Source: Bacteroidales bacterium
Lineage (GTDB): Bacteria > Bacteroidota > Bacteroidia > Bacteroidales > UBA12077
Direction: 5' to 3'
DNA: 41,880 bases
NCBI GenBank assembly: GCA_030668615.1
Contig: DAOUTQ010000008.1
Location: 1 to 41,880 of the forward strand
Part shown: one piece after another, positions 19,405-30,682 of the stretch
Layout of the letters: each line of letters opens with the position of its first letter
How positions within the stretch are numbered: position 1 is the stretch's first letter
The notes under the pieces: model-generated
Database searches by the model: none
Seen by the model: only the letters and a program-made list of their open reading frames with translations
What the model was told of the DNA's origin: nothing
Position numbers and translations under genes: made by a program

Positions 19405-19686
19405 TTACTTATACAAACAACGATACGAAGTATCGCCTTCAACTTTTACTTTGAATTTAACGTCTTTCTCAACTCTGAAAGTTTCGAATTCTTTGTAATC
19501 TTTCCATTCTGTTTCGCCAGGTTGTTGAACAGTCATTACACCTGAAGTAACTGTCATAAATTCAATAGTAGAAGTTCCGAATTCATATTCACCTTCAGCC
19601 ATAACACCAATTGTAGTTGCACCTTCAGTAGCTTCAAAAGCAATCGATTTTACTTTACCGTCGAAATATTCGTTTGTTTTAAACAT
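19405..19686 (-). CDS. ppnP: Pyrimidine/purine nucleoside phosphorylase
   Basis: 93 residues, the full length of the YaiE/PpnP cupin family. Recognisable blocks: YFDGKVKSIAFE at the N terminus, GVMAEGEYEFGTSTIEFMTVTSG, and FRVEKDVKFKVKVEG with YRCLY at the end. It phosphorolyses several nucleosides to base and ribose 1-phosphate. A -7 box lies about 27 bases upstream. Not obviously related to its neighbours. Confidence 0.9.
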   Translation of the reverse strand: MFKTNEYFDGKVKSIAFEATEGATTIGVMAEGEYEFGTSTIEFMTVTSGVMTVQQPGETEWKDYKEFETFRVEKDVKFKVKVEGDTSYRCLYK

Positions 19687-19712
19687 AGCGTATTGTTTTT
19701 ATTATTTGTTCA

Positions 19713-19720
19713 CAAAAATA
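19713..19720 (-). promoter_or_regulatory. Putative -7 box for ppnP
   Basis: Minus strand TATTTTTG, 27 bases before the start codon. The rest of 19687-19949 is AT-rich; I could not identify a convincing promoter for the caspase array on the plus strand. Confidence 0.45.
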
Positions 19721-19949
19721 TAGATTTCGATTTTGATTAACATGATAAAACTTTTGTTTTCACAATTCAACCTTAAACATATTTCTTAAAGTCTCATGTA
19801 TTATTCACTCAAATCATTGACTTTCAAATCGTTTTTTTGTATTTTGTAAAATTGTTAAAGAAAATGTAAACTATATAATTTCTCTCATTTGTTCTTTTTG
19901 CTACGAACAATAAAAAGATATTTGAACTAAATAACCTTAATAATCAAAT

Positions 19950-22178
19950 ATGAGAAAGTTATTTATTGTTATGACAGTAATGCTATTCTGCATTTCTGCA
20001 AATTCGCAGGAACGCCGTCTGGCACTTATTGTCGGTAATGGTAATTATCCAACAAGTACTCTTTCCAACCCTGAAAATGATGCAAAATCTATGGAAAAGT
20101 CACTTAAAGCTCTTGGGTTTAAAGTAATCAGACATGAAAACCTGACACAAAAAAAGTTGACTCAGGCCATTGATGATTTTGGGAACAAGCTGAAGCACTA
20201 TGATGTTGGACTCTTTTTTTATGCAGGACATGGTATTCAGGCAAAAGGTTTTAACTATTTAATTCCTGTGGATGCAGTTTTAAAGGCAGAAGCAGATGTA
20301 GAATACAACTGTGTACGTGCCGATAGAATTTTTGGAAAAATGGAAGAAGCACAAAATGACATCAATATTATTATACTTGATGCTTGCCGTGACAACCCGT
20401 TTGAACGAAGCTGGACCAGGGCTGCAAGAGGACGTGGTTTAACATTTATGGATGCACCCGGTGGATCAATTATTGCATATGCAACAGCACCAGGCAAAAC
20501 AGCCTCAGACGGATACGGGGAAAACAGTCCATACACTTCTGCCCTGATTCAATGTATGGAAATTCCAAACATTAAAATTGAAGATTTTTTTAAGAAAGTA
20601 AGATCTCAGGTTCGGGAACAAACAAAAGATCAACAAACTCCATGGGAATCAACATCATTGGAAGGTGATTTTTATTTCTATATCGATGCAAACCAAACTG
20701 TACAGGAAACTCAACATACGGATGCTACTCAGCTTGTTGATAACAACGTTAAGGAATTAAAGAGGACCGCTGCTCCTGAAATTAAATCAATGGCGATTCT
20801 TCCTTTTGCAAATTATTCCGGTGATGAAACTCAGGCATATCTTGCCTTAGGTATGCAGGATGCTTTAATTAGCGAGATTGGGCAACTTGGAACAATAAGA
20901 GTCATATCAAAAACATCTACATTAAGTTATACAAATACTCAAAAAACAATACAAGAAATTGCTTACGAATTAAATGTTGATGCTATTATGGAAGCTTCAA
21001 TAATGACATTACAAGACAATATCAGGCTTCACCTTAAACTCTACAGTGCTTATCCCGAAGAAAAGCAACTATGGTCTCAAACCTTTGATTCTGACATGAG
21101 TAATATTTTTAATCTTTACAACGATGTTATTAAAACCGTTGCGACTGAAATTCAGCTCACTTTATCACCTGAGCAAGAAACTCAACTTAATAAAACGAGA
21201 CAAGTTAATCCTGAAGCCTATGATGCATACATGAAGGGCAGGTATTACTGGGAACAAGTTACACCTGATGGCCTCCGGAAGGCACTGGAGTATTTCAATA
21301 TCTCATTGGAAAATGATCCTGATTTTGCTCCAGCTTATGCAGGAATTGCTGAGGTCTGGCAAGTCAGGATGCAAGTAGGTTTTGCGTCACCATCCATTGC
21401 CATTCCCAAGATTTATCAAAACATTAACAAAGCCCTGGAATTGGACCCGAATTCTGCCGATTCACATCATGCTAATGCCATGTTAGCTGTATTTACAGAA
21501 TGGAATTGGGAAAAAAGTGAGAGGGAGTTTTTAAAGGTTCTGGAAATCAATCCCAATCATGCGTTATGCCGGGTAGTGTATGCACAATTATTGACGTGCC
21601 TAAGGAGAACTGACGAGGCCTATGAACAGGGTAAATTGTCACAGGAACTGGATCCCTTAAATCCACTTGTCCAGGGGTTATTTCTTGCAGTTTTATTTGA
21701 TAGAGGAGATTATGACGAAGTTCTATCCTTAACTAAAAAAAACCCGAATTCCCTATTTTCTATATTTTATAGGGAAGCTTCATATTATGTTCAAGGCGAT
21801 TATCAAAATTCTTTCGAGGCATTGATACCATTATTCCAATTCATCGGACTGGATAAAGAAACTATAATTGATATCCAAAAAACATATGAGGAAAAAGGTT
21901 ATAAAGCTGCTGTCGAAAATGCTGTCAATGCACTGGAAGAGAAAGCTCAGAATAGCTATGTTTCGCCATTTGATTTAATAACGATTTATCGTAGTGAATT
22001 AAATAAACCCGAAAAAACTCTTGAACTTTTAGAGAAAGCTTTTGAAACTCGTGATCCAAGTATGCCATCTATTTCCACAAATATGTACCCTACTATTGAT
22101 TACGTAAGGGATAATCCCAGGTTTATTGAGCTTCTGAAGAAAATGAACCTTCCTTTAAACAAAAATGATAGGAAATAA
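19950..22178 (+). CDS. Exported caspase-TolB-like-TPR protein, copy 1
   Basis: 742 residues. Signal peptide (1-20, cleavage near ANSQ-E). Caspase-like peptidase C14 domain about 21-245 with the dyad His94 in FYAGHG and Cys146 in LDACRDNPF. A short variable linker leads to a TolB/FlgO-like domain (about 277-405), MAILPFANYSGDETQ to SQTFDSDMSNIF, as often seen ahead of TPRs in adenylate-cyclase relatives. About 415-742 is a TPR array, ending with NPRFIELLKKMNLPL. Both catalytic residues are intact. The signal peptide puts it in the periplasm, unlike cytosolic anti-phage caspases. It heads a pair with copy 2 (22-base gap). Substrate unknown. Confidence 0.85.
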   Translation: MRKLFIVMTVMLFCISANSQERRLALIVGNGNYPTSTLSNPENDAKSMEKSLKALGFKVIRHENLTQKKLTQAIDDFGNKLKHYDVGLFFYAGHGIQAKGFNYLIPVDAVLKAEADVEYNCVRADRIFGKMEEAQNDINIIILDACRDNPFERSWTRAARGRGLTFMDAPGGSIIAYATAPGKTASDGYGENSPYTSALIQCMEIPNIKIEDFFKKVRSQVREQTKDQQTPWESTSLEGDFYFYIDANQTVQETQHTDATQLVDNNVKELKRTAAPEIKSMAILPFANYSGDETQAYLALGMQDALISEIGQLGTIRVISKTSTLSYTNTQKTIQEIAYELNVDAIMEASIMTLQDNIRLHLKLYSAYPEEKQLWSQTFDSDMSNIFNLYNDVIKTVATEIQLTLSPEQETQLNKTRQVNPEAYDAYMKGRYYWEQVTPDGLRKALEYFNISLENDPDFAPAYAGIAEVWQVRMQVGFASPSIAIPKIYQNINKALELDPNSADSHHANAMLAVFTEWNWEKSEREFLKVLEINPNHALCRVVYAQLLTCLRRTDEAYEQGKLSQELDPLNPLVQGLFLAVLFDRGDYDEVLSLTKKNPNSLFSIFYREASYYVQGDYQNSFEALIPLFQFIGLDKETIIDIQKTYEEKGYKAAVENAVNALEEKAQNSYVSPFDLITIYRSELNKPEKTLELLEKAFETRDPSMPSISTNMYPTIDYVRDNPRFIELLKKMNLPLNKNDRK

Positions 22179-22200
22179 AATAATTTAAAAAAATCCAAAA

Positions 22201-24398
22201 ATGAAAAAACTAATTATTGTAATAACGGTATTGTTTTTCTGCATTTCTGCTATTGGGCAAGAACGTCGTCTTGCGTTAGTTATTGGTAATGGAAATTACC
22301 CGACGAGTACTCTTAGAAATCCTGAAAATGATGCAAGATCGATGGAAGTAGCACTTAAAGCTATTGGGTTTGAGGTGATAAAACACGAGAACCTTAAACA
22401 AAAGGAGCTGGCCCGGGCTATTGATGATTTCGGGAACAGGTTAACCAACTATGATGTAGGTTTGTTTCATTATGCTGGACATGGGGTTCAGTCGAAAGGT
22501 TTTAATTATTTAATTCCTGTGGATGCAGTTTTGAATACAGAATCAGACGTTGAATATAACTGTGTCAGAGCCGACAGGGTTTTAGGAAAGATGGAGGATG
22601 CAAAAAACAGTATAAACATTATAATTCTGGATGCCTGCCGTGATAACCCATATGAGCGTAGCTGGACGAGGGCCGCCAGAGGAAGGGGCCTTGCAACTAT
22701 AACAGCACCGGTAGGTTCTGTAGTTGTATATGCTACATCACCCGGGAGTACAGCTTCTGATGGACATGGAAAAAATGGACTATTTACCTCCGGATTGTTA
22801 ACATATATGAATGAACCGGGGATTACAGCTATTCAGATGTTCCAGAAAGTAACAGCTTATGTTCTGAAAAACTCAAATAATACGCAGTTGCCATGGGTAT
22901 CAACCTCGCTTACCGGAGATTTCTATCTTGCTCCGGGTTCCGGACATTCAGATAATGCAATGAACATTGATAATACGGATGATAATGTTTTAAATATTGA
23001 TAATACTGCAAGCAGATCAGATACCGAGACTTCAATAGCAGTGCTGCCATTCACTAATCTTACCGGAAATGCTGAAAAAGATTATCTCGTTAAGGGTCAG
23101 AATGATGCTCTGTATACTGAATTATGCAAAATAGGACAGGTTAAGCCTCTTCGTGTAGTAGGCGGACGTACAGCTGCTGCCTTAAGCAATGATCGAATGT
23201 CAATTCCTGATATTGCAAAACAAATAAATGTTGAATACCTGGTGGAGGCATCTGTTTATAACTTTGACGACTCTATAATGCTTCAGGTAAAATTGATCCA
23301 GGCTTATCCGGAGGAGAAACCTATTTTCGCAACAACTTATACAAGTGATATTCGTAATATTTTTAAATTGCATAGCAATATTGCCGGACAGATAGCTCAA
23401 AAAATTAACATGGGGCTTACTCCTGAAAATCTGGTCAAACTTCCCACATCAAGAGAGGTTGGTAATCCCGAATCATACAAGGCTTATCTCCGTGGTATGT
23501 ATAATTTGCATCAGCTTACTCCAGACGGAATAGAAAAGGGATTGGAATATCTTCACGAGGCTATCAGAATTGATCCTGCGGATGCTTTTGCATATGCCGG
23601 ACTTGCACTCGGATATCTTGAAATTGCACATGGATTCTTTGACCCTGGTGGCTCATAAAAAAAGCTGAGGCAGCCGCATGGCAGGCACTTAAACTTGATA
23701 CTACAATATCTGAGGTTTATACAGCCCTGGCTGAATTACATATGTATTCACTCTGGGAATTTGATAAAGGTGAGAAGTATTTTAAAAAGGCACTTGAGTT
23801 AAATCCAAATTCAGACCAGGCACATTATCATTATTCATGGGCTCTTTTTCTTCTAGGAAGGATGGATGAAGCCATTGTTGAGCATGAACTTGCACAGAAG
23901 TATGATCCTTTCAATCCTCACATTACTGCATTTTTTGGATTATTATATTGTTATGCTGGCAGGTATGAAGATGCAATACGGGAAGCTGAAAAATCATTTG
24001 AAATGATAAAGGATTATCCTCTCGGTTATTGGACTCTGGGCGAGACATATTTGGCGATGGGCAAGGAAGATGAGGCGATAGAAGCACATAAGAAAATGGC
24101 AGAAATAGCCCCTCCGTTAAGTTGGATGCTTGGTTATACCTATGCTGTTACAGGTCATATTGAGGAAGCAGAAAAAATTCTGAATGAACTGGAAAAAGCT
24201 GAGCTCTCCAGTTGGAACGCTATAGGACGTGCAGTGATACATGGAGCATTAGGCAATATGGATGAAGCATACAAATGGGTGGACTACGAACCACATCATG
24301 CATGGATAGCATGGATTACTTGCATGCCGATGTTTAAACCACTACATGATGCTCCACAGTATGAAGAATTTGTACAACAGCTTAATATTCCTAAATAG
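22201..24398 (+). pseudogene. Caspase-TolB-like-TPR protein, copy 2, frameshifted
   Basis: Same architecture as copy 1 (signal peptide; His94; Cys146 in LDACRDNPY; TolB-like domain; TPRs), but the frame stops at 23658 after FFDPGGS. The TPR reading continues at once in another frame (WLIKKAEAAAW...), open from 23643 to 24398. Adding one base near 23643-23655 restores a protein of about 732 residues, matching its neighbours. This copy is the most divergent (for example GLFHYAGHG, and LATITAPVGSVV where others have LTFMDAP) and looks richer in G+C. Either a true pseudogene, an assembly error, or a truncated protein that keeps protease and TolB-like domains. A terminator follows at 24474. Confidence 0.8.
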
Positions 24399-24473
24399 TT
24401 GTTATTAAATGAGGCAAAGAAGAATATTTGTATCATGATTCATTTTGTAAGAACCATTCTAATCATATATTAC

Positions 24474-24497
24474 AGCCCCGTTTTCGGGGCTTTTTTA
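24474..24497 (+). terminator. Intrinsic terminator within the caspase array
   Basis: A perfect 7-bp stem AGCCCCG/CGGGGCT with a TTTT loop, followed by a T run. It divides the array into two transcription pairs (copies 1-2 and 3-4). Confidence 0.9.
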
Positions 24498-24625
24498 TTT
24501 ACTTAGTTTTCCACAAACAGTACAATAACAATGTGTTCTATTGACATCCCTTCACAATTGTTGTAACTTGGGCTATAATTATTTAAACAAAAAATATAGT
24601 CACAGAAGTTTTAAAACTGTATGGT

Positions 24626-26839
24626 ATGAAAAAGTTAATTATTGTAATAACGGTATTGTTTTTCTGCATTTCTGCTGGTTCGCAGGAACGCCGTCTGGCA
24701 CTTGTTATCGGGAATGGTAATTATACCAGTAGTACTCTTTCCAATCCTGAAAATGATGCAAAAGCTTTGGAGAAATCACTTAAAACTCTTGGATTTAATG
24801 TAGTTAAATACGAAAATTTAACACAGAAACAGTTGACTCAGGCCATTGATGACTTTGGTAATAAACTAAAGAATTTTGATGTTGGATTATTCTTTTATGC
24901 TGGACATGGAATTCAGTCAAAAGGTTTTAATTATCTAATTCCGGTTGATGCCGTTTTAAAATCAGAATCAGATATTGAATATAATTGTGTAAGAGCCGAC
25001 AGAATTTTCGGTAAAATGGATGATGCACAAAATGATATTAATATTATTATACTTGATGCATGTCGGGATAATCCTTTCGAAAGAAGCTGGACCAGAGCAG
25101 CTACGGGGCAAGGCTTAACATTTATGGATGCTCCGAGAGGTTCTATTATTGCTTATGCAACATCACCTGGGAAAACAGCTTCGGATGGTTATGCAGAAAA
25201 TAGCCCTTACACTTCAGCCTTGATTACGTGTATGGAAATTCCAAACATCAAAATAGAAGACTTCTTTAAAAAAGTAAGATCTCAGGTCCGGGAACAAACA
25301 AAAGATCAGCAAATTCCATGGGAATCAACTTCATTGGAAGGTGACTTTTATTTTCAACACGATGAAGATTATGTTCAAAAAGAGACTAAAAGCAATGATG
25401 CAAAACAAACAGATGATATTATTGATAGCGAAAGTAGAACAAGCGCTGTTCCTGAAATAAAATCTATGGTAATTTTACCTTTTGCCAATTATTCAGGAGA
25501 TGAAAGTCAGGCTTATCTTGGGATGGGATTACAGGATGCTCTAATTTCTGAAATTGGTCAGCTTGGAACCGTCAGAGTTATTTCAAAAACATCAACTTTA
25601 AGCTATGCTAATACACAAAAAACGATACAAGAAATTGCTTATGAATTAAATGTGGATGCTATTATGGAAGCATCTATTATAACTATACAAGACAATATCA
25701 GACTACATCTTAAATTATATAAGGCTTACCCTGAAGAAAAGCAAATATGGTCGAAGACCTTTGATTCGGATATGAGTAATATTTTTAATCTCTATAGTGA
25801 AGTAGTTAAGGAAATTGCAAAAGAGATACAATTGACTCTTTCACCACAACTAAAATCTAAACTTGCTAAAAACAGACAGGTCAATCCTAAAGCATATGAT
25901 GCTTATATGAATGGTGTCTTTTACTTTTATCAGTTCACTCCCGACGCTTTTGAAAAGGCTCTTGAGTATTTCAATCTTGCAATAGAGCACGATCCTGAGT
26001 GGGGGCCTGCATATGGAGGCATTGCATTATTCTGGATAGGACTTCGGCAATTTGGACTTGCTCCTTCAACCGAAACAATACCAAATATCTATAAATACCT
26101 TGATAAACTGAATGAATTTGAGCCAGGTTCTGCCAATACACATTATATAAATGGTTTGGTAGCTGTATGGACAGGATTTGATTGGGAAAAGGGTGAAAAA
26201 GAGTTTTTAAAAGCACTGGAGCTAAATCCCAACGATGCATACGCAATGATATATTATGCACATTTATTGATGTGTTTAAAAAGAAATGACGAAGCTTTAT
26301 TAATGGGTCAAAAGGCATTGGAATTAGATCCTCTTAATATAGCTATTCAAACATTACATTCGGTTGTTTTATATTGTGCAAATAAAAATGACCAGGCAAT
26401 TACCCTGGCTGAAAAAATTTTGAAAGTTGTACCAGATAATAGCTTGGCGATATCAATACTTTCCATAACACATTATCATAAAAAGGAATACAAAAAAAGC
26501 ATTGATTATTTGACTAGATATTTCCATATTGAAGAGGCTTATAAATTTTTGATATTAAGCACTGTCGATGAAAAAGGATATATTGCTGCGTACGAAATGT
26601 TAATTTCTAAAATAATAGAAATGACTGGTGATAGTTATCCGATGGATTTAGGGCAATTATACCAGATGATAAATAATTACTCTAAGGCAATATACTGGTA
26701 TGAGAAAGCATATGAAGATCATGATGCAAATATCCCTTATCTTGGAACAAGATTATGTTCTATTGGTCAACTAACAGTTGAACCAGGTTATATTGAGTTA
26801 ATGCAAATGCTGAAATTACCTTTAGGTGAATTTGAATAG
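24626..26839 (+). CDS. Exported caspase-TolB-like-TPR protein, copy 3
   Basis: 737 residues: signal peptide MKKLIIVITVLFFCISAGSQ, C14 domain with His94 and Cys146, TolB-like domain (about 273-400, MVILPFANYSGDESQ), then TPRs ending YIELMQMLKLPLGEFE. Caspase and TolB-like parts are nearly identical to copies 1 and 4, while the TPR part is its own. The 5' end is a mosaic: the first 50 bases match copy 2, the next 25 match copy 1, the body is closest to copy 4. It follows the terminator and begins the second pair; I could not find a consensus promoter in the 24498-24625 spacer. Confidence 0.85.
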   Translation: MKKLIIVITVLFFCISAGSQERRLALVIGNGNYTSSTLSNPENDAKALEKSLKTLGFNVVKYENLTQKQLTQAIDDFGNKLKNFDVGLFFYAGHGIQSKGFNYLIPVDAVLKSESDIEYNCVRADRIFGKMDDAQNDINIIILDACRDNPFERSWTRAATGQGLTFMDAPRGSIIAYATSPGKTASDGYAENSPYTSALITCMEIPNIKIEDFFKKVRSQVREQTKDQQIPWESTSLEGDFYFQHDEDYVQKETKSNDAKQTDDIIDSESRTSAVPEIKSMVILPFANYSGDESQAYLGMGLQDALISEIGQLGTVRVISKTSTLSYANTQKTIQEIAYELNVDAIMEASIITIQDNIRLHLKLYKAYPEEKQIWSKTFDSDMSNIFNLYSEVVKEIAKEIQLTLSPQLKSKLAKNRQVNPKAYDAYMNGVFYFYQFTPDAFEKALEYFNLAIEHDPEWGPAYGGIALFWIGLRQFGLAPSTETIPNIYKYLDKLNEFEPGSANTHYINGLVAVWTGFDWEKGEKEFLKALELNPNDAYAMIYYAHLLMCLKRNDEALLMGQKALELDPLNIAIQTLHSVVLYCANKNDQAITLAEKILKVVPDNSLAISILSITHYHKKEYKKSIDYLTRYFHIEEAYKFLILSTVDEKGYIAAYEMLISKIIEMTGDSYPMDLGQLYQMINNYSKAIYWYEKAYEDHDANIPYLGTRLCSIGQLTVEPGYIELMQMLKLPLGEFE

Positions 26840-26877
26840 TAGCTTGATTTTTAAAATATTAACGAAAAAAGCAAGAA

Positions 26878-29094
26878 ATGAAAAAAATAATTATTGTATT
26901 AGCAGCAATACTTTTATGCTTTTTCTCTTATTCGCAGGAAAAGCGATTGGCTCTTGTTATTGGAAATGGTAATTATACCAACAGCATTCTTTCTAACCCC
27001 GAAAATGATGCAAATGCTTTGGAAAAATCACTTAAAGCTCTTGGATTTAATGTAGTTAAATACGAAAATTTAACACAGAAACGGTTGACTCAAGCCATTG
27101 ATGACTTTGGAAATAAACTAAAGAATTATGATGTTGGATTATTCTTTTATGCAGGACATGGAATTCAGTCAAAAGGTTTTAATTATCTAATTCCGGTTGA
27201 TGCCGTTTTAAAAACGGAAGCAGATGTTGAATACAACTGTGTTCGTGCCGACAGAATTTTTGGAAAAATGGAAGAAGCGCAAAATGATATTAATATTATT
27301 ATACTTGATGCATGTCGGGATAATCCTTTCGAACGAAGCTGGAGCAGAGCTGCAACAGGAAAAGGTTTAACATTTATGGATGCACCACGTGGTTCTATAA
27401 TTGCTTATGCTACTGCACCGGGCAAAACTGCTTCGGATGGATATGCAGAAAATAGCCCTTATACTTCAGCCTTGATTACATGTATGGAAATTCCAAACAT
27501 CAAAATAGAAGACTTCTTTAAAAAAGTAAGATCTCTGGTTCGGGAACAAACAAAAGATCAGCAAACTCCGTGGGAATCAACTTCATTGGAAGGAGATTTT
27601 TATTTTTATCATGATGAAAACTATGTCTTAAAAGAAACTGAACGCAATGATGTAAAGCAGACAGTTGACAATAGTGATAATGAAAATAAAAGAACTGCTG
27701 CTCCTGAAATAAAGTCTTTGGCTATTTTGCCTTTCGCCAATTATAGTGGTGATGAAACTCAAAATTATCTTGCCTTAGGCATGCAGGATGCATTAATATC
27801 CGAAATTGGTCAGTTGGGTTCAATAAGAGTAATTTCAAAAACATCTACCCTAAGTTATGCAGGTACTCAAAAGACAATACAAGAAATTGCATACGAATTG
27901 AATGTAGATGCTGTAATGGAAGCTTCTATGATAACAATACAAGATAATATTAGGCTACATCTTAAATTATATAATGCTTACCCAGAAGAAAAACAAATTT
28001 GGTCTCAAACTTTTGATTCTGATATAAGTAATATTTTTAATCTTTATAATGAGGTTATTAAAACAGTTGCAAGTGAAATACAAATTACTTTATCACCAGA
28101 TCAACAATCTCAACTATCTAAAATAAGGCAAGTAAATCCTGAAGCCTATAAGGCATATCTTAAAGGGAAATCTCACCTATTTTCCCTAACACGTGAGAGT
28201 ATGGAAGCAGCTCTGGACTATTTTCAAAATGCAGCAGAAATTGATCCTGAATATGCTCCTGCATATGCAGGTATGGCAGGTGTTTGGGGAGTTTTAAAGC
28301 AAATGGATTATGTCTCACCTGATGTAGCAAATCCAAAAATGAAAGAATATATGTCCAAAGCACTGGAACTTGATAGTCATAACGCAGATGTATATTTTTA
28401 TGATGCTTTAGTGAAAGTATGGACAGACTTTGACTGGGAAGGAGCCGAAAAATCCTTTAAGAACTGTCTTGAAATAAATCCAAATTATTCCGAAGCCTGG
28501 GCCTATTATTCACATTTCTTAATGTGCTTAAAAAGACCAGATGAAATGAGGGAAACTATGAAACGAGCAAGAGAACTAGACCCTCATAATATTATAATTC
28601 AAATATTGGAAGGTGTGGAACTTATGGTAGAATCAAAATACGATTTAAGCATAAACAAAATGAGTCAACTTCAAATGATAATGCCAAATAATCCATTACT
28701 CATGGTCATACTTTTGCAGTGTTACGCAGAAACAGGTAAACATGACTTAGCAATCAATGAATTAAAGAAGATCCTCAATCAAGTAACCGATGAAACGGTA
28801 CTTAAAACATTAGATAAAGAATATAGCAAATTGGGTTTCAAAAAAGCCTTGAATGCCACAGCTGATGTTTTGGTGGAGAGTTCAGGTTTTGTCTCCGCTC
28901 AACATGTCGCCACAATATATGGATATGCTGGCAACGTCGATAAAATGCTGGACTGGCTGGAAAAAATGTATATCAGAGGAGATCCAGATTTACCCTACAT
29001 CGGAGTATTACCCTTTTTTAGACAATATCATGACGAACCGCGTTACATTGAAATAGTGCAACGAATGAAATTACCATTAGGTGAATTAGAATAA
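26878..29094 (+). CDS. Exported caspase-TolB-like-TPR protein, copy 4
   Basis: 738 residues: signal peptide MKKIIIVLAAILLCFFSYSQ, C14 domain with His94 and Cys146, TolB-like domain (about 275-402), then TPR repeats with NPNYSEAWAYYSHFLMCLKR and the closing EPRYIEIVQRMKLPLGELE. It lies 38 bases after copy 3 and is probably cotranscribed. Within the protease region it shares long runs of identical bases with copy 3 (for example around 24800-24960 against 27052-27212), a sign of recent duplication or gene conversion. Catalytic residues are intact; the target is unknown. Confidence 0.85.
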   Translation: MKKIIIVLAAILLCFFSYSQEKRLALVIGNGNYTNSILSNPENDANALEKSLKALGFNVVKYENLTQKRLTQAIDDFGNKLKNYDVGLFFYAGHGIQSKGFNYLIPVDAVLKTEADVEYNCVRADRIFGKMEEAQNDINIIILDACRDNPFERSWSRAATGKGLTFMDAPRGSIIAYATAPGKTASDGYAENSPYTSALITCMEIPNIKIEDFFKKVRSLVREQTKDQQTPWESTSLEGDFYFYHDENYVLKETERNDVKQTVDNSDNENKRTAAPEIKSLAILPFANYSGDETQNYLALGMQDALISEIGQLGSIRVISKTSTLSYAGTQKTIQEIAYELNVDAVMEASMITIQDNIRLHLKLYNAYPEEKQIWSQTFDSDISNIFNLYNEVIKTVASEIQITLSPDQQSQLSKIRQVNPEAYKAYLKGKSHLFSLTRESMEAALDYFQNAAEIDPEYAPAYAGMAGVWGVLKQMDYVSPDVANPKMKEYMSKALELDSHNADVYFYDALVKVWTDFDWEGAEKSFKNCLEINPNYSEAWAYYSHFLMCLKRPDEMRETMKRARELDPHNIIIQILEGVELMVESKYDLSINKMSQLQMIMPNNPLLMVILLQCYAETGKHDLAINELKKILNQVTDETVLKTLDKEYSKLGFKKALNATADVLVESSGFVSAQHVATIYGYAGNVDKMLDWLEKMYIRGDPDLPYIGVLPFFRQYHDEPRYIEIVQRMKLPLGELE

Positions 29095-29197
29095 AATGTT
29101 ATCTTCAAACTTTATTAATAACTAAAACTAAAACGTAGCAATCTCACGACAAATTGATTGAATTCAAGCGAATTATGTTAAGGTGCATTTAAAAAAC

Positions 29198-30220
29198 ATG
29201 GGACATATTTATGTATGTATAACTGTTGACTGGGAAGGCGAAGAATTAAGTAAAATAAATGACCTTATTAAAATTCGTAAGCAAATTGGCAATGAAATTC
29301 CATTCACTCATTTTATATGCCCAAATTACTTTGTATCAAATTTCAATAATGAATTCATCGTTAATAAAATAAAGAGCGCTATTACTCCTTACGATGAAGT
29401 TGGTTTACACATCCATTGCTATAAAGGATTGATTAATAATGTTCCAGGTGTAGAATTTAGGAAAGAGCAAAATTATCATAATGTACCTGGTTGGTTCGAG
29501 GAAAAAATAGTAAAAAAAATAATACCATCATATCGACGTAATGTTTCAGGACGAGGTGTTCCGTTATCTGTATATTCAAAAGGTGAAATAGAAAAAATAA
29601 TTACCGTTTGCAAAGAACTTTTAACTCAACATCTGCAACTTGATGAAGTTAATGGTTTTAGGGCAGGTGGTTGGATTGCAAACGATACAGTACTTGAAGT
29701 TGTCGAAAAATTGAATTTTGTATATGACAGTTCAGCTGTAGCACCATCAATCTTTTCACATGGCTTTAGCAAAAATAATACAGGGAATAAAATTGATAAT
29801 CGTGGTGATAGTAATGGCATTTTTACCGAACATCTATTAAAGCTATGGGGGTTTAATATGCAACCAGAAGGTTTTCTGAAAAACATTAATATACTTCATT
29901 ATAATAATCAGGAAGCTATTCAAATACATTCACAACCATTCAGGTTTAATAAAATAATTGAAATTCCAAATAATTGCGCCTTAACGGAATTTTGTTCGGC
30001 ACAAAAAACCGTTTTGCCGTTAATAAAAAAATATCTGCAAAGCTTAGAGCAAAACCCTAACGAATCATTTGTTATTGTTTATGGATGCCATCAGGAAGGT
30101 GATATTCAATTTAAAAACGATCTTCTAAAATTCTTTTTTGAGCTATCAAGATTAGATACTTCGCTAATTAAGTTTGTTCGAATGGATGAAGTTATAAAAC
30201 AACTAAATATTCCGAAATAG
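29198..30220 (+). CDS. NodB-like polysaccharide deacetylase homologue
   Basis: About 340 residues from the ATG at 29198 (a GTG lies 15 bases upstream). The NodB-type motifs are recognisable: the general-base Asp in TVDWEGE (Asp11), the metal histidines in GLHIHCY (His71, His73), and RAGGW (155-159). Such enzymes remove acetyl groups from sugar polymers, usually outside the cytoplasm, but no signal peptide is evident here, so a soluble or precursor substrate is possible. It follows the caspase array after 103 bases with no terminator between, so cotranscription cannot be excluded. Specificity unknown. Confidence 0.7.
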   Translation: MGHIYVCITVDWEGEELSKINDLIKIRKQIGNEIPFTHFICPNYFVSNFNNEFIVNKIKSAITPYDEVGLHIHCYKGLINNVPGVEFRKEQNYHNVPGWFEEKIVKKIIPSYRRNVSGRGVPLSVYSKGEIEKIITVCKELLTQHLQLDEVNGFRAGGWIANDTVLEVVEKLNFVYDSSAVAPSIFSHGFSKNNTGNKIDNRGDSNGIFTEHLLKLWGFNMQPEGFLKNINILHYNNQEAIQIHSQPFRFNKIIEIPNNCALTEFCSAQKTVLPLIKKYLQSLEQNPNESFVIVYGCHQEGDIQFKNDLLKFFFELSRLDTSLIKFVRMDEVIKQLNIPK

Positions 30221-30548
30221 TTTTCTCTTGAATAAGAGAAAGGAGTGCCATCCTCAATAAATATACAACAAGCAGAGCTATCGTACTGCATTTTAAGAGT
30301 TTATGACATAGTTAAGCATGTAAAAATTTTGATCCTGCTATGCCATATCTATCGACAGCCTGCTTTACATTGAATTAGTGCAGTGAATGAATTTTAATAT
30401 GTATTTTGTATTCCCGCTATTAGAATGCATATTAACAATGACTTACATTAATAATTGTTGTTTTTAGTTTTTATTTTAAACATCGCAAATACTTTTTTGT
30501 TATTTACATGAAGTGTTATTTAGAATGTTTCTAAACATGACAAAAGTC

Positions 30549-30581
30549 TTGTTTTTTATTAACACGACATGCATATATTTG
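30549..30581 (+). promoter_or_regulatory. Probable pruA promoter with palindrome-like core
   Basis: TTG at 30549-30551, 22 bases, then TATATTTG at 30574-30581. The surrounding GACATG-N10-CATAAC resembles the palindrome at the ModE-gene promoter (20 of 24 positions). It lies 153 bases before the gene. Confidence 0.5.
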
Positions 30582-30608
30582 CATAACGCTTTTTAAGGCA
30601 AAAATAAT

Positions 30609-30682
30609 GTCATCCTGTCCCGATAACTATAGGGATATCGAAGGAAGAACACATACCACACTTCGACGAGCTCAGTGTGACA
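30609..30682. repeat. Dispersed repeat, copy 6
   Basis: Ends TGTCATCC and AGTGTGACA. Contains CCCGATAACTATAGGG as a nested hairpin and the right-hand hairpin TCAGTGTGA shared with copy 4. It lies between the pruA promoter and start codon, so would be part of the mRNA leader. Confidence 0.75.

Follow-up and report, generated by a model that had tools for sequence, protein, structure and literature searches.

A tandem array of four genes in a Bacteroidales genome encodes proteins in which a signal-peptide-like start is followed by a caspase head, predicted to be of the paracaspase type, and by a TolB-TPR part that is predicted to have the fold of the periplasmic sensor domain of CadC. Within the samples surveyed this fusion was found only in one genus, and its heads and tails have been exchanged by recombination. 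Our preferred reading, which we hold at somewhat less than an even chance, is that the array supplies soluble periplasmic sensor-proteases with one output placed on several inputs.

Organization of the array

The window, the whole stretch of 41,880 nucleotides that was analysed, is one entire contig (C14) of a draft assembly of 239 contigs and 3.3 Mb. Four consecutive genes on the forward strand (19950–29094), reported in a preliminary description of this DNA, were borne out with the following coordinates.

19950–22178, + strand: gene 1, with a signal-peptide-like start (residues 1–20), C14 domain (22–242), linker (~247–274), TolB-like domain (~277–405) and TPR
20229–20231, + strand: codon of catalytic His94 of gene 1, a residue invariant in 17 heads
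20385–20387, + strand: codon of catalytic Cys146 of gene 1, a residue invariant in 17 heads
20763–20765, + strand: codon of Arg272 of gene 1, a putative autocleavage site in the disordered linker
22201–24398, + strand: gene 2, second subfamily, frameshifted (ORFs 22201–23658 and 23742–24398)
24626–26839, + strand: gene 3, architecture as gene 1
26878–29094, + strand: gene 4, architecture as gene 1

All four genes had been taken as whole, which holds for genes 1, 3 and 4; gene 2 is read as two ORFs that lie in separate frames, and a stop occurs at ~23656 beside seven consecutive A. A congener has an intact relative of gene 2 (locus L010 of genome G012), and the frameshift (window 23640–23760) may be genuine or may stem from the assembly. 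The earlier picture of near-identical heads with different tails likewise applies to genes 1, 3 and 4, which share 87–92% identity in the C14 domain, 83–88% in the TolB domain and 32–36% in the tails, but not to gene 2, which is only 66–68% (C14) and 38–40% (TolB) identical to the other three. TPR families matched every tail in profile searches, as expected from that description, and one output head wired to different input tails is supported as a build of the proteins. Two further C14 proteins are encoded in the genome, with layouts unlike the array.

Export of the proteins is probable, presumably through the Sec pathway. A basic start, a hydrophobic core, a small residue at position −1 and Gln at +1 were recognized by eye in all eight family members; the signal peptides proposed at the outset therefore stand as signal-peptide-like starts, and export as probable. 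That export would be out of the ordinary for a bacterial caspase, as the description implied, was not supported. Asplund-Samuelsson et al. (2012, PMC3501461) give 46 possible cases, single-domain prokaryotic metacaspases preceded by a lone N-terminal helix, possibly a signal peptide. Several Bacteroidales C14 homologues with heads 50–61% identical also begin, by eye, with signal-peptide-like sequences. Heads of this level of identity are common in Bacteroidales, where their partners were read by eye as MORN-, WG-, FGE-sulfatase-, TonB- and TPR-like.

The caspase head

A profile search placed Peptidase_C14 at residues 22–242 in all four genes (E 6e-42 to 2e-44), with scores of 144–152 bits against a curated cut-off of 21.4, and both His94 (AGHG) and Cys146 (DACR) of the first description are present in four of the four. 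No DNA-binding family matched the N-terminus, which is made up of the signal-peptide-like sequence and C14. The best solved relative of the head is MALT1, which comes from animals, carries death and Ig domains and has no sensor tail of the array kind. This was the outcome both by sequence (E 1.4e-24) and by the fold of the predicted head model (Z 26.8, rmsd 3.0, 213 residues), so that the head, as modelled, has a fold of the paracaspase type with MALT1 as its nearest match; the caspase fold is intact in the model.

In MALT1, the P1-Arg of the substrate is held by three acidic S1 residues, D365, D462 and E500 (PMC4626109). The HMMER alignment matched these to D44, D144 and D187 of gene 1, which are invariant in 17 heads, and on the strength of these counterparts cleavage after Arg/Lys is predicted. 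The catalytic pair and the S1 acids are kept in all four genes, and judged by sequence the proteases are probably catalytically competent.

The TolB-TPR part

The TolB/FlgO-like domain of the preliminary description found no match in Pfam and a weak one in NCBIfam (HilA/CadC middle region), and became firm by structure. When the TolB domain alone was compared with solved structures, only a marginal TolB match was obtained (E 0.15). The isolated TolB-TPR model (pLDDT 91.6), on the other hand, aligned with the periplasmic domain of CadC (3ly8) at Z 22.3 over 301 of 323 residues, the next family following five lower at Z 17, and CadC also ranked first in Foldseek (E 3e-8). According to this model, the TolB-TPR part is the CadC periplasmic sensor fold and not a generic TPR array. 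As the periplasmic domain is the signal input domain of CadC (PMC3096576), we infer that the TolB-TPR tail senses a signal, likeness of fold alone being no proof of it.

CadC and the other ToxR-like one-component regulators carry an N-terminal DNA-binding domain and a transmembrane helix, both of which the array proteins lack. CadC acts through a DNA-binding domain that lies across the membrane in the cytoplasm, whereas the output of the array is a protease, probably on the side of the sensor. The module was also seen, by eye, behind Ser/Thr kinase, adenylate cyclase, AraC, TIR and membrane-anchor heads, and behind an OmpR-type head in a Caballeronia protein that has no evident transmembrane segment. 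The kinase, cyclase, AraC, OmpR and TIR proteins thus share the sensor module with the array but bear other output heads, mostly cytoplasmic by kind. A single hydrophobic helix between head and module, recognized by eye in the kinase and AraC relatives, would put the module in the periplasm; its occurrence where no transmembrane segment is evident indicates that it is not always periplasmic.

Further forms of the module occur at three loci. A TIR-like domain is fused to it at L039 (814–2922), and one protein at L072 (1–2900) apparently has a cyclase-like domain as well as a Ser/Thr kinase ahead of it. On a Bacteroidia contig (L030, 1–3428), two consecutive membrane-anchored TolB-TPR-type genes occur without a caspase, the tail of the first being 62% identical to the tail of gene 4.

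TPR arrays usually bind proteins, and the tail could instead be a substrate-recruiting arm by which each paralogue brings a different client to the same head. We consider this possible, if rather unlikely. It fits the strong matches of the tail to solved TPR proteins, the strong divergence of the tails between paralogues whose heads do not diverge, and the conservation of the gene-4-type tail across species (dN/dS ~0.05–0.11). The CadC match, however, takes in the TolB part along with the first TPRs and outranks generic TPR proteins, and the module also occurs with heads for which a substrate arm would have no use, those of AraC-type regulators among them.

Distribution of the fusion

Within the family, for which 25 genomes were compared, full-length relatives were confined to the same genus. 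Sampling of 393 genomes from the order and 395 from the phylum revealed no further full-length fusion; with two candidates scored in each genome, rare fusions elsewhere may have been missed. The named relatives are metagenome-assembled Bacteroidales genomes, and the other carriers of a whole gene have one copy each. Plasmid records contained each module apart and never both together; phage records matched neither module. Two sets of candidates were rejected as fusions: a Bacteroidota match over residues 20–335 (L067), which is a caspase without the TolB domain, and matches on Leisingera plasmids, which are exported-type caspases without the sensor.

Prokaryotic metacaspases and orthocaspases (PMC3501461; PMC6426788) share the His-Cys pair of the C14 p20 domain with the array proteins, often have TPR, which is among the commonest metacaspase partners (Asplund-Samuelsson et al. 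2012, PMC3501461), and sometimes a possible signal peptide, but neither a TolB-like or CadC-type sensor nor a tail-swapped array appears in the text searched. Both modules are known, and possibly exported caspases as well as caspase-TPR fusions have already been reported (PMC3501461). The fusion of a caspase with a CadC-type sensor looks new as a combination. In the open-access literature searched, no description of it or of a tail-swapping array was found, which agrees with the first impression of an undescribed layout, absence there not being proof.

Recombination and constraint

Single-copy genes of other genomes have tails that share 84–85% identity with the tail of gene 4. L027 combines a gene-1-like head with a gene-4-like tail, and L029 is mosaic inside its tail. 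The head tree rejected the group of L027 and gene 4 (p 6e-5) and that of L027, gene 4 and L028 (p 8e-8), the latter being supported 100/100 by the tail tree. This significant conflict shows that heads and tails were exchanged by recombination. A deletion between the near-identical heads of an array would yield a chimera like L027.

Compared with relatives, genes 1 and 4 show strong constraint on their heads (dN/dS ~0.03–0.09). In the comparison of the gene 1 and L029 tails, dN/dS was 0.4–0.5, partly because of the mosaic in L029.

Insertion site and proposed transcription units

The array lies among housekeeping genes, namely PpnP, molybdopterin genes and an aldehyde dehydrogenase. PpnP and the aldehyde dehydrogenase adjoin in eight congeners, with no copy of the genes between them, and one gene-2-type copy occupies this site in G012. 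In G018, a head fragment and a tail remnant were found at the contig ends of the site. The following features were located around the genes.

19678–19760: PpnP-side copy of a ~85-bp flank that is also in the empty site
19817–19846, + strand: candidate Bacteroidota-type promoter of gene 1 (TTG, ~20 bases, TAnnTTTG-like), with a similar site in G018
24474–24491, + strand: terminator-like hairpin with a T run in the gene 2–gene 3 interval, also conserved in L027 and L029
24541–24571, + strand: candidate promoter of gene 3
29183–30220, + strand: 345-aa ORF with GTG start, family without assignment, inside the insert and outside the proposed system
30475–30611: aldehyde-dehydrogenase-side copy of the ~85-bp flank

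Each flank of the insert matched the same ~85 bp of the empty site above shuffles; compared directly with one another in the window, the two copies did not score above shuffles (58 vs 75). The 345-aa ORF had no match in Pfam, NCBIfam or PADLOC and is absent from the empty sites.

Over ~215 bp 5′ of gene 3, 82% identity (203 aligned bases) was found with the upstream region of the single-copy gene of L027. That gene occupies another site, close to what we read as a dipeptidyl peptidase III gene. Upstream of gene 1 the sequence matches G018 and G012 and not L027. Since the two upstream regions match different loci, the array is, as read from them, a composite of two loci. The promoter-like and terminator-like sites split it into two putative transcription units, genes 1-2 and genes 3-4. 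The dipeptidyl-peptidase-III-like site of this genome itself (L092, G000:C90, 1583–4407) has no caspase, and also lacks the 717-aa gene present there in L027 and L029.

Adjoining the aldehyde dehydrogenase in G018 is only a short gene-4-type tail remnant, next to another gene (L094, 4685–5396), which suggests decay of an array. Together with the frameshift in gene 2, the single copies in the other whole-gene carriers and the eight congeners without any copy at the site, this remnant could point to a neutral, short-lived tandem duplication, in which the array has no special role and only one or two copies work. That reading is improbable, given the strong constraint on the heads of genes 1 and 4 and the retention of catalytic pair and S1 acids in all four genes.

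Many bacterial caspases serve as effectors in conflict systems, but a periplasmic self-killing or anti-phage effector is quite improbable here: the TIR head on a related sensor and a caspase match in PADLOC are in its favour, yet the match is partial, weak (E 1e-9 to 3e-11) and without partner genes, no described defence system was matched in full, the neighbours are housekeeping genes and phage records gave no match. PADLOC matches to viperin and Cas3 near the array were rejected as off-target, the neighbours being MoaA-like and HD-domain proteins.

Proposed mode of action

As sensor-proteases, the array proteins would be exported by the Sec route and their signal peptide removed. The C-terminal TolB-TPR part would then bind a signal or partner, differing from one paralogue to another, and binding would pair or free the N-terminal paracaspase head. 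The head is predicted from its S1 pocket to cleave periplasmic or outer-membrane targets after Arg/Lys. The array as a whole would thus present one output to several inputs from two transcription units, and would have grown and changed by homologous recombination between the near-identical heads, swapping tails to some presumable benefit.

More doubtfully, the array may represent a one-component sensor-protease in a general sense, with proteolysis driven by a CadC-type sensor on the sensor's side of the membrane and with sensors swapped by recombination among tandem copies whose heads stay constant. If true, the CadC/ToxR type of sensor would extend from gene control to regulated periplasmic proteolysis, and one cut could come under new signals through sensor exchange. 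Bacterial paracaspases may in that way work outside the cytoplasm. The natural swaps of sensors on one protease head allow sensing by the TolB-TPR part to be tested.

In the whole-protein AlphaFold2 model confidence was limited (pTM 0.65), and no interface between head and sensor is claimed for that reason. The linker was predicted with a pLDDT of 31–35. Conceivably, the head may free itself by cutting this disordered linker at an Arg that is nearly conserved and immediately precedes the sensor. Of eight sequences, seven have the Arg at position 272 and gene 3 has it at 271; it is common mostly to close relatives.
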